NCBI GenBank assembly: GCA_903921725.1 | Contig: CAIXRA010000015.1 | Location: 1-64,000 of the forward strand | DNA length: 64,000 nt | Direction: 5' to 3' | Source: an uncultured Lentisphaerota bacterium | GTDB taxonomy: Bacteria > Verrucomicrobiota > Lentisphaeria > Oligosphaerales > CAITYL01 | Shown: piece after piece, positions 6,376-62,057 of the stretch | Numbering within the stretch: position 1 is the stretch's first letter | How the letters are laid out: the number at the start of each line of letters is the position of its first letter | Made by a program: the position numbers and the translations under genes | The notes under the pieces: generated by a model | What the model saw: the letters and a program-made list of their open reading frames with translations, nothing else | Told to the model about the DNA's origin: nothing | Database searches by the model: none

Positions 6376-6483
6376 TTTAGACAGGATTGCAGGATCTGCA
6401 GGATGTACAGGATAATGGCAAGCTTTTATAGATGAAACTGCATGAATCCTGCTGATCCTGAAAATCCTGTAATCCTGTCTAAA
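6376..6483. repeat. CAGGAT-core inverted repeat
   Basis: Two 38-base arms (6376-6413 and 6446-6483) are inverted copies of each other. Each arm carries TTTAGA and then four CAGGAT hexamers with two- or three-base spacers. By eye all mismatches between the arms (about six) fall in the spacers; every hexamer is intact. It fills the gap between the yehS-like gene and dbpA and could form a long hairpin or terminator. Confidence 0.85.
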
Positions 6484-35112: not shown

Positions 35113-36804
35113 TCAGAGAATGTCGCCCTGTCCGGCCCCGACACCGGACGCCTCTCCGGAATGGCCGAGCTGCAGGAGCTTCTCCGGCGCCAGCCATTTT
35201 TCGGCCGTCTCCCGGTCCACGCCGGCCACCGCCTGCAGCGCGGCGAAAAGGTCGTCCCCCTGCTCCGCCATGCGGCGCGCGACCCGGCTGGCCACCCCGT
35301 AGCCGAGATGCGGCACCAACGCCGTCACCCACGCCGTCGAGCCCACCGCCACGCCGGCGCCCGGCCCCGCCTCGATTCCCCGCACGCCGAACTCCGTGAA
35401 GCGCGGAAGCAGCCCGTGCAGCAGCCGCAGGCTCCCAAGCAGGTTGTGCGCGATCACCGGCAGGAACGCGTTCAACTCCAATTGCCCCGCGGACGCCGCC
35501 TGCACGACCGCCGCGTCGTTCGCCAGAACCTGCATCGCCACCGACGCCGCATGCTCCGCCATCACCGGATTCACCTTCCCCGGCATGATCGAAGAACCCG
35601 CCTGACGCGCCGGCAGCCGGATTTCGCGCAGCCCGTACTCCGGCCCCGATGCCAGCAGCCGCAGATCGCCGCTCACCTTCAGCAGGTTCACCGCCACCGT
35701 GCGCAGGATGCCCGACACCTCCGCGAACACGTCCTGGTTCTGCGTCGCCTCCACCAAGTTTTCCGCCCGCGCCAGGCCGAGCCCCGTCAGCTCCCGCAGC
35801 TTCTCCGTCGCCAGAAAGATGTACGCCCGCGGCGCGCCGAGCCCCGTGCCGATCGCCGTCCCGCCGAGGTTCACGACGCGCAGCCGCTCCTCGCACTTGA
35901 ACACGCGCCAGCGGTCCCGCGCAAACGCCTCCGCCATCGCGCCGAACTGGCGGCCGAGCGTGTACGGCACCGCGTCCATCAGCTCCGTCCGCCCCATCTT
36001 CACCGTCTTCGCAAACTTGCGCTCCAGCTCCTGAAACGCGCCGTGCAGCGCGGTCAGGTCGGCGTCGAGCTGGCGGCAGCCGCGGATCGCCGCCACCTTC
36101 AGCGCCGTCGGATAGGTGTCGTTCGTGGACTGGTGCAGGTTCACCGTCTCCAGCGGGCTGACGGCCGCATAGTCGCCCGGCTTCTTCCCGAGCCGCAACA
36201 GCGCAAGGTTCGCCACCACCTCGTTCACGTTCATGTTCAACGACGTCCCCGCCCCGCCCTGCAGCGCACCCACCGGAAACGCCTCGTGAAAACGCCATGC
36301 GGCGGGGGGATGACGTTCTCTCATCCCCCCGAACCCCTCTGGAGAGTGGCACTGCCACGGATAACTTTTAAAATCCGGCGTTGCAGAGTCCGCGGATTGC
36401 GCACCATCGCCCGGCGCCGCGCCCCCGCTTCCGGAAGCCGCCGCCGCACCGGCACCACCGGCCGCGGACTCTGCAACGCCGGATTTTGAAAAGGAAACCG
36501 TGCCTGTGGCACCCTCAGGGGGATTCAGGGGGAAGGAGGACGCTTCCCCCTGACACACGGACGCGATTTCCGCGCAGGCGGACTCGATGGCGTCGGCGAT
36601 TTCCGCGGGGATGAAACCGAGTTCGCGGTTGGCGCGCGCCGCCGCGCGTTTCACGTCGGCGTACGCCGCCACCAGTTCCGGCGCCACCGGCGGTTCCGCG
36701 CCGAAATTCGCCAGCGCCCGCACCGTGTGGATGCCGTACAGCGCGTCCGCCGGCAGCTCCAGCGCCCCGAGCATATCCTCTTCACGCCGCATCGTCTTCT
36801 TCAT
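35113..36804 (-). CDS. aspA: Aspartate ammonia-lyase/fumarase-family enzyme with an in-frame palindromic insertion
   Basis: A 563-residue member of the aspartase/fumarase superfamily, which removes ammonia from aspartate to give fumarate. Signatures: LYGIHTVRALANF, FPVGALQGGAGTSLNMNVNEV, STNDTYPTA, MGRTELMDAVPYTLG, VNLGGTAIGTGL and the catalytic loop SSIMPGKVNPVMAE. The VNLGGTAIGTG region favours aspartase over fumarase. Normal family length is about 470. The excess comes from residues ~84-167, a Gly/Ala/Ser-rich stretch inserted between the helix ending IASVC and the FHEAFPV strand; its DNA is a large palindromic element (36304-36553). The frame stays open, so the enzyme may fold around a looped-out insert. 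It follows larE by 60 bp on the same strand. Confidence 0.88.
   Translation of the reverse strand: MKKTMRREEDMLGALELPADALYGIHTVRALANFGAEPPVAPELVAAYADVKRAAARANRELGFIPAEIADAIESACAEIASVCQGEASSFPLNPPEGATGTVSFSKSGVAESAAGGAGAAAASGSGGAAPGDGAQSADSATPDFKSYPWQCHSPEGFGGMRERHPPAAWRFHEAFPVGALQGGAGTSLNMNVNEVVANLALLRLGKKPGDYAAVSPLETVNLHQSTNDTYPTALKVAAIRGCRQLDADLTALHGAFQELERKFAKTVKMGRTELMDAVPYTLGRQFGAMAEAFARDRWRVFKCEERLRVVNLGGTAIGTGLGAPRAYIFLATEKLRELTGLGLARAENLVEATQNQDVFAEVSGILRTVAVNLLKVSGDLRLLASGPEYGLREIRLPARQAGSSIMPGKVNPVMAEHAASVAMQVLANDAAVVQAASAGQLELNAFLPVIAHNLLGSLRLLHGLLPRFTEFGVRGIEAGPGAGVAVGSTAWVTALVPHLGYGVASRVARRMAEQGDDLFAALQAVAGVDRETAEKWLAPEKLLQLGHSGEASGVGAGQGDIL
36304..36553. repeat. REPIN-like palindromic element inside aspA
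   Basis: A 250-bp symmetrical element. At one end GGGGGGATGA (36304-36313) pairs with TCATCCCCCC (36321-36330) over a seven-base loop. At the other, TCAGGGGGAAG (36525-36535) pairs with CTTCCCCCTGA (36543-36553), also over a seven-base loop. Between them are perfect 26-base inverted arms (36370-36395 and 36462-36487), and the flanks between hairpins and core are imperfect inverted copies of each other. Two hairpins in inverted orientation around a centre is the layout of REPIN elements. It lies wholly within the aspA-like coding sequence and keeps the frame. No other copy was seen in this window. Confidence 0.85.
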
Positions 36805-36864
36805 TCCCCCGCCCTTCCGCATTCCAACTGCTGTCGTTCGCCCCCGGCTTCCGCACTCCCCGCC

Positions 36865-60881: not shown

Positions 60882-61817
60882 ATGCCGTTCGCCATTGAAA
60901 GCAAGCTCGTCATCGCCGTCGCCTCCAGCGCGCTCTTCGACCTGGCCGAGGCCGACCGCGTCTTCCGCACCGAGGGGATCGACGCCTACCGCCGCTACCA
61001 GCACGAGCACGAGGGCGACATCCTCAAGCCCGGCTGCGCCTTCCCCTTCATCCGCCGCCTGCTGTCACTGAACGGCGAGCGCGAGGACGACCAGCCGGTC
61101 GAGGTCGTCCTCCTCTCCCGCAACGACGCCGACACCGGCCTGCGCGTGTTCAACTCCATCGAGCACCACCGCCTCGGCATCTCCCGCGCCGCCTTCACCC
61201 GCGGCCGCTCGCCGCACTCCTACATCGGCGCGTTCAACGCCTCCCTCTTCCTTTCCGGCGACCCCGCCGACGTCGCGCGCGCCATCGCCCAGGGGCAGCC
61301 CGCCGGCACCGTCATCCACGCGCCGTTCCTCGACGACCCGGACGACCGCGAGCTGCGCATCGGCTTCGACTTCGACGGCGTGCTGGTGGACGACGAGGCG
61401 CAGCAGGTCTACGACCGCGAGGGGATCGACCGCTTCCTCGCCAGCGAGGACCGCCAGGCCGCCTCCGTGCTCAACCCAGGCCCGCTCAAGCGCCTCCTCG
61501 GCGAGCTCGCCGGCATCCAGCGCCTCGAACGCCACCGCAAGGAGCAGGATCCGGCCTACGAGCCGCGCCTGCGCACCGCCATCATCACCGCGCGCAACGC
61601 CCCCTCCCACAAGCGCGTCGTCACCACCCTGCGCTCCTGGGGGCTGAACGTGGACGAGGCGTTCTTCCTCGGCGGCATGGACAAGCGCCGCATCTTCGAG
61701 GTCTTCCGGCCGCACATCTTCTTCGACGACACCCTGCGCACCGTCGAGAACGCCGCCGCCCAGATCCCCGCCGTCCACATCCCGTTCGGTCTGCAGAACC
61801 GCCACCCGGGCGCCTGA
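60882..61817 (+). CDS. 5'-nucleotidase (PF06189 family)
   Basis: A 311-residue cytoplasmic nucleotidase of the bacterial PF06189 type. The family is recognised from KLVIAVASSALFDLAEADRVF, VVLLSRNDADTGLRVFNSIEHH, FNASLFLSGDPADVARAI, the HAD-like IGFDFDGVLVDDEAQ, AIITARNAPSHKRVVTTL, FFLGGMDKRRIFEVF and HIFFDD. It would dephosphorylate nucleoside monophosphates. The ATG at 60882 matches the usual N-terminus (MPFAIESKLVIAV). There is no clear Shine-Dalgarno; the leader is an arm of an inverted repeat that could hide or shape the start. Confidence 0.92.
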   Translation: MPFAIESKLVIAVASSALFDLAEADRVFRTEGIDAYRRYQHEHEGDILKPGCAFPFIRRLLSLNGEREDDQPVEVVLLSRNDADTGLRVFNSIEHHRLGISRAAFTRGRSPHSYIGAFNASLFLSGDPADVARAIAQGQPAGTVIHAPFLDDPDDRELRIGFDFDGVLVDDEAQQVYDREGIDRFLASEDRQAASVLNPGPLKRLLGELAGIQRLERHRKEQDPAYEPRLRTAIITARNAPSHKRVVTTLRSWGLNVDEAFFLGGMDKRRIFEVFRPHIFFDDTLRTVENAAAQIPAVHIPFGLQNRHPGA

Positions 61818-61832
61818 TGCGGGAGGCAAAAA

Positions 61833-61944
61833 CCGTTCTCGCGCAGAGGCGCTGAGGCGCAGGGAAAACAATCGAAGACAAACAGGAATAGCTTTGCGTT
61901 TTTCCGCATGAACCCTGCGCCTCAGCGCCTCTGCGCGAGAACGG
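61833..61944. repeat. Perfect 32-bp inverted repeat with GCGC-AGAG core
   Basis: Arms 61833-61864 and 61913-61944 are exact inverted copies, beginning CCGTTCTCGCGCAGAG, with GCGC words every eight bases. The 48-bp loop contains no gene. It lies between the 5'-nucleotidase stop and the L,D-transpeptidase gene and may act as a terminator. Confidence 0.88.
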
Positions 61945-62057
61945 CATCCGCCCCGGGCGTCGTCCGCTGGAAAACATTTCGCCCCGAAGTAGAGTAGGCC
62001 GCAGTGCGCGCCATAACCCGCTTTCACCTCCCCCCCCCCGCAGGAAAAACAGACACC

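Follow-up and report, generated by a model that had tools for sequence, protein, structure and literature searches.

The window analyzed here, a 64,000-nucleotide stretch from an uncultured Lentisphaerota bacterium (genome G000; 3.18 Mb in 82 contigs), carries an aspartate ammonia-lyase gene, aspA, whose minus-strand reading frame stays open right across a long palindromic element. The features at this locus are as follows.

35113 to 36822, minus strand: aspA, aspartate ammonia-lyase of 569 amino acids (PF00206 and PF10415), with the element-encoded stretch near residues 89 to 174
36303 to 36553, minus strand: whole palindromic element (nhmmer family model and alignment of 45 copies)
36303 to 36333, minus strand: right terminal hairpin (R-type REP), 11-bp stem, loop GAGAACG on the minus strand (helix 6: paired in 94.6% of cells, with two-sided change in 7 of 12 pairs)
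36370 to 36395, minus strand: inner arm, perfect 26-nt inverted repeat, covarying among copies (helix 4: 97.5% paired)
36462 to 36487, minus strand: inner arm, partner of 36370 to 36395, covarying among copies (helix 4)
36526 to 36554, minus strand: left terminal hairpin (L-type REP), 11-bp stem, loop CGTCCTC on the minus strand (helix 2: 93.4% paired, 6 of 9 pairs changing on both sides)

The element is a near-perfect palindrome of 251 bp, lies in sense orientation relative to aspA, and scores 177.9 bits against the family model. It exceeds the 217 to 232 bp typical of the family because its center holds about 27 extra nucleotides. Along the minus strand from 36553 to 36303, a hairpin with loop CGTCCTC is followed by a G+C-rich spacer, a 26-nt arm, a 66-nt loop, the complementary arm, a spacer, and an 11-bp hairpin whose loop, GAGAACG, is the complement of CGTTCTC. 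The terminal hairpin on the 36303 side reads CGGGGGGATGA-CGTTCTC-TCATCCCCCCG and that on the 36553 side TCAGGGGGAAG-GAGGACG-CTTCCCCCTGA, with CGTYCTC as the consensus loop of both. An initial annotation of this DNA had described stems of 10 and 11 bp with seven-base loops, and perfect 26-base arms in the middle; the loops and the arms (26 of 26 positions complementary) stand, but both stems measure 11 bp. Folded as RNA, the whole element forms one long hairpin at -184 kcal/mol (z = -11.8), and none of 200 shuffled sequences folded equally low.

Alignment to relatives placed the insert exactly between conserved blocks of the enzyme. The aspA genes of G001 and G002 (77% and 76% identical outside the insert, respectively) are contiguous or nearly so at this site, and 13 further homologues of the same order likewise lack the insert. 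The initial annotation had located the interruption where the family has no insert and had given 83 or so added residues; the net gain relative to G001 and G002 is about 82 to 87 codons. The family invariants are kept in an alignment with 26 homologues, again as first described, and the element-encoded residues are small and hydrophilic. In another genome of the order (G023), the aspA locus (L062) is 100% identical over 4053 bases to an NCBI record named 'Lentisphaerae bacterium ADurb.Bin082'. An AlphaFold2 model built with the 26 homologues as input (561 residues scored) reached a pLDDT of at least 90 in 326 of the 561 residues, a pTM of 0.80, and a TM score of 0.95 (by target length) to the aspartase structure 1J3U. 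Residues 92 to 165 fell below a pLDDT of 50, and this low-confidence insert sits between helix 65-88 and the 170s segment that precedes the conserved QGGAGTS motif. As modeled, the aspartase fold is retained and the insert is a predicted disordered loop.

The element belongs to a dispersed family. Searching the draft assemblies, in which several copies lie at contig ends, returned about 20 full or partial copies in G000 (68 to 84% identity), about 45 in the sister genus G001, and 1 in G002. Matches in other genomes of the same order were weak and cover only the G+C-rich center; they were discarded as family members. Among 198 genomes of the class, a single further match was convincing: one end of the element in a genome of another order (G066), where a lone REP sits in frame within the gene for an HsdR-like restriction subunit (L318, 1502 to 1552). 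An exact 22-base pattern had no match in GTDB contigs once the own genome was excluded, nor had an exact 20-base pattern in viral contigs; blastn against plasmids gave no match to the element, and Rfam gave nothing above threshold, its subthreshold matches being to generic long hairpins only. Short dimers (L140, L158, and L167), R ends joined to other centers (L132 and L147), and the single REP in the HsdR-like gene point to a modular, REP-like nature. The REP dimer of L147 (2006 to 2202, G001) has as its center a different palindrome, of the AACGTTCGACGTTCG type.

Covariation was assessed on 34 aligned full copies across the terminal hairpins, subterminal hairpins, and inner arms. Standard pairs occupied 92.3% of cells, versus 46 to 51% when partners were slid by 1 to 3 columns, and 27 of 52 pairs changed on both sides, versus 16.1 in shuffles. 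The CGTYCTC loops remain constant among copies while the stems covary, a pattern expected either under enzymatic recognition of the end hairpins or under recurrent correction of one arm against the other. These results support the initial proposal of a mobile palindrome tolerated in a surface loop, given the many genomic copies and the empty sites in relatives. That proposal was said to fail if relatives shared the insert and no other copies existed; the relatives lack the insert and the genome holds the element in some 20 places.

The sites of insertion may follow a rule. The left flank resembles the reverse complement of the right flank in G000 (4.94 versus 3.84 for re-paired flanks, 0 of 400 controls), and flank inversion also went beyond re-paired controls in G001 (5 of 400), in nongenic copies (0 of 400), and in copies within genes (38 of 2000). 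Examples are CCGCTGAA|TTTCAGGCGG in pabB and TTAGAAAGAAGA|TTCTTCTTTCTAG between genes. Such mutually inverted flanks suggest insertion into quasi-palindromic sites, which is a simpler reading than one in which templated mutation later lengthened the palindrome outward; some REP families have been reported inside palindromes (PMC3733652). In the pabB-pabC fusion, the three elements measure 226, 222, and 226 nt, and the corresponding net inserts relative to G005 (by match coordinates) come to 234, 222, and 219 nt, which indicates no target duplication of constant size.

The alternative that fares best concerns the mover. The palindrome could be a canonical REPIN, i.e., a REP doublet mobilized by its own genome's RAYT, a Y1 tyrosine transposase, with its copies in genes being incidental, which we regard as a real prospect though slightly more doubtful than probable. 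The initial annotation had called the element REPIN-like, and its architecture fits, with two inverted hairpin REPs, the short dimers, single REPs, and a conserved loop; Y1_Tnp genes are present in G000, G001, and G002, and the lack of a constant-size target duplication also fits. Membership of the REPIN class does not follow. The hairpin foot lacks a GTAG or CGTC tag, the ends reading (AA)GTCAGGGG and CCCCGA(CTT), and CGTY lies in the hairpin loop, away from the foot. The suggested search for a RAYT found, among the Y1 genes of these three draft genomes, none flanked by element arms. The clearest RAYT-like gene (L173, 2337 to 3658, contig C14 of G000) is surrounded by several copies of its own 54- to 71-nt repeats, a family of the CCTGGGGTGGAACCCCAGG type that is unrelated to the element. 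Moreover, the element is far longer than the short doublets. This alternative is nonetheless compatible with read-through in genes.

It is unlikely that the element is a miniature inverted-repeat transposable element (MITE), left by internal deletion of a DNA transposon and matched at its ends by a full-length relative. The terminal inverted repeats, the length of 220 to 250 bp of DNA that is noncoding in itself, and the internal deletion derivatives observed would all suit such an origin, but a target-site duplication of constant size is absent and no full-length relative was found on contigs that themselves end in repeats. Candidates for such a parent at G001 contig ends (L141, L145, L321, and L322) were rejected, as the longer neighbors there led only to another short repeat beside or within the R hairpin.

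Several other repeats were recorded in the course of these searches. A different repeat of about 200 bp adjoins or is nested in the right hairpin in G001 (L137, about 1750 to 1900; L321, 1408 to 1612; L322, 60 to 264). Contig C18 of G000, which has a second Y1 gene, bears a 37-nt inverted repeat (L172, 2413 to 2562) that is 97% complementary with its arms 76 nt apart. In the window, positions 61816 to 61961 form an inverted repeat with 49-nt arms (84%) that contains CGTTCTCGCGCAGAGGCG, and positions 6376 to 6483 one with 38-nt arms of AGGAT/ATCCT units.

Copies were sorted by their open frames and by a codon-usage score computed for each flank separately. Ten full copies lie inside seven protein-coding genes, to which each would add about 73 to 87 residues.

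aspA: one copy, sense
PabB-PabC fusion, one open frame of 880 amino acids: three copies
carbohydrate ABC permease: two copies
Ppx/GppA: one copy
B12-binding radical SAM protein: one copy, antisense
UxaA, named from its sequence rather than from a database match: one copy
adenine deaminase AdeC, named from its sequence rather than from a database match: one copy, antisense

All ten are in the host frame, free of stops, and a multiple of three in length. Homologues without inserts were found in G001, G002, G005, and G022 at all five host genes of G000, covering the single sites in aspA, Ppx, and the radical SAM gene, the two in the permease, and the three in PabBC. Homologues of UxaA and AdeC were searched for in G000 and G002 and none was found, so that the insertion status of these two genes is read from the element itself. 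The per-flank codon-usage test yielded no proven out-of-frame interruption. Among the copies it flagged for coding flanks in different frames (L041, L043, L133, L137, L138, and L146), the three inspected (L041, L043, and L133) proved to be boundaries between different genes; e.g., in L043 (3045 to 3110) a MutL-like gene lies next to a glutamate mutase E-like gene and takes its last 20 or so residues from the left end of the element.

The sense copies in genes (n = 8) appear to share a preferred reading of the core. All eight have one frame in common across the right inner arm, and seven have one in common across the left inner arm, specifying a peptide of roughly VAE.AG ... PADSAT; at the right end of the element, by contrast, each of the three sense frames is used. 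When copies in the same gene are counted once, one-frame reading of the core would arise by coincidence in about 1% of cases. Copies outside genes are about equally open in the three frames, and the number of open frames out of six does not differ significantly between copies within genes (2.7) and the others (2.0; p = 0.09). A single core frame in genes with no bias outside them suggests that frame preference acts at the level of insertion survival and that there is no strictly conserved peptide. Copies in genes enter the count only once selection has acted, so that their flawless frame record says no more than that the survivors are readable.

These observations bear on two further proposals of the initial annotation, each of which now appears very improbable. 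The first is that the insert is skipped by translational bypassing or RNA removal, restoring an uninterrupted enzyme. The very stable mRNA hairpin and the position exactly between conserved blocks would be in keeping with skipping, but such a process needs no readable insert, and yet every one of the gene-interrupting copies is readable in the host frame and the sense copies prefer one core frame. Agreement in length alone would have a chance of about (1/3)^10 if copies were independent, although survivor bias prevents a strict figure. The second is that the insert is a domesticated linker or domain selected for function in aspartase; the kept frame and the small, hydrophilic residues are as expected from it, but the insert is absent from every relative examined, including G001 and G002 of the same family, and the same DNA occurs in unrelated enzymes and between genes. 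A chance palindrome, an assembly chimera, or a decayed pseudogene is ruled out by the many independent copies, the covarying stems, and the conserved host motifs on either side.

Taken together, the locus very probably holds one copy of a nonautonomous, REP-ended mobile palindrome that is read through in genes, is tolerated as a disordered loop, and is an analogue of the Rickettsia elements. The palindrome, of some 220 to 250 bp, would have dispersed among the genomes of a Lentisphaerota-type family. Its single-stranded hairpin ends are probably recognized by an enzyme, because the end hairpins vary in their stems and share the CGTYCTC loop. Entry would apparently be into quasi-palindromic sites, mostly near gene ends but also inside genes. 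Upon in-frame landing in a gene, as frame conservation suggests, transcript and ribosome would read straight through, and the added residues would act as a disordered surface loop on a host enzyme that keeps its fold.

The closest parallel is provided by the Rickettsia palindromic elements (RPE-1 and others; Ogata et al. 2000, 2002), which the literature (PMC10969869, PMC3733652) describes as dispersed both between genes and in frame inside genes, about 150 bp long, endowed with a conserved peptide, and found in small obligate intracellular alphaproteobacteria. Both families comprise dispersed palindromes placed intergenically and in frame in unrelated metabolic genes, with an encoded peptide that the host protein tolerates; the multicopy dispersal, the in-frame placement in unrelated genes, and the empty sites in relatives were all found here. 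Unlike RPEs as so described, the present element is 220 to 250 bp long, G+C-rich, and without a strongly conserved whole-length peptide, resides in a PVC-group lineage, and occurs three times in one enzyme; the likeness drawn here is one of architecture and gene placement. Protein-coding palindromes of Wolbachia and Methanocaldococcus, cited in PMC2996958, are likewise palindromic repeats in frame in genes, in unrelated lineages. Intragenic GTAG/CGTC REPs and REP dimers of Opitutus terrae and others (PMC3733652) share with the element the hairpins, inverted dimers, insertion inside open reading frames, double insertions per gene, palindromic flanks in some families, and the PVC superphylum. 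However, those REPs carry the GTAG/CGTC foot and many of their inserts are 20 to 30 residues long, with clusters of up to 82, whereas our element has no foot tag, a shared motif in the loop, 73 to 87 residues per insert, and an inner palindrome of considerable length. In REPIN/RAYT systems (PMC3116915), too, a pair of inverted REPs makes up a mobile doublet and singlets exist, but in our case no cognate RAYT with flanking copies was found and the center is much longer.

A bolder proposition, which we hold only tentatively and deem rather doubtful, is that this mobile palindrome is adapted to intragenic life. It would enter quasi-palindromic sites whatever their coding status, its one core frame would give a harmless peptide of small residues, and it would repeatedly add disordered loops of 70 to 90 residues to housekeeping enzymes of a PVC-group lineage, up to three per protein. 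Rickettsiales supply the best-known cases of in-frame palindromes in housekeeping enzymes, and genome reduction was a natural explanation there. The present family, apparently unrelated and residing in a PVC-group lineage whose genomes span 3 to 6 Mb, shows that reductive endosymbionts are not the only setting of the phenomenon. The inverted flanks point to a possible target rule that is testable, and the matched empty sites, together with three insertions in one enzyme, provide a natural series for studying the way enzymes gain disordered segments from mobile DNA.
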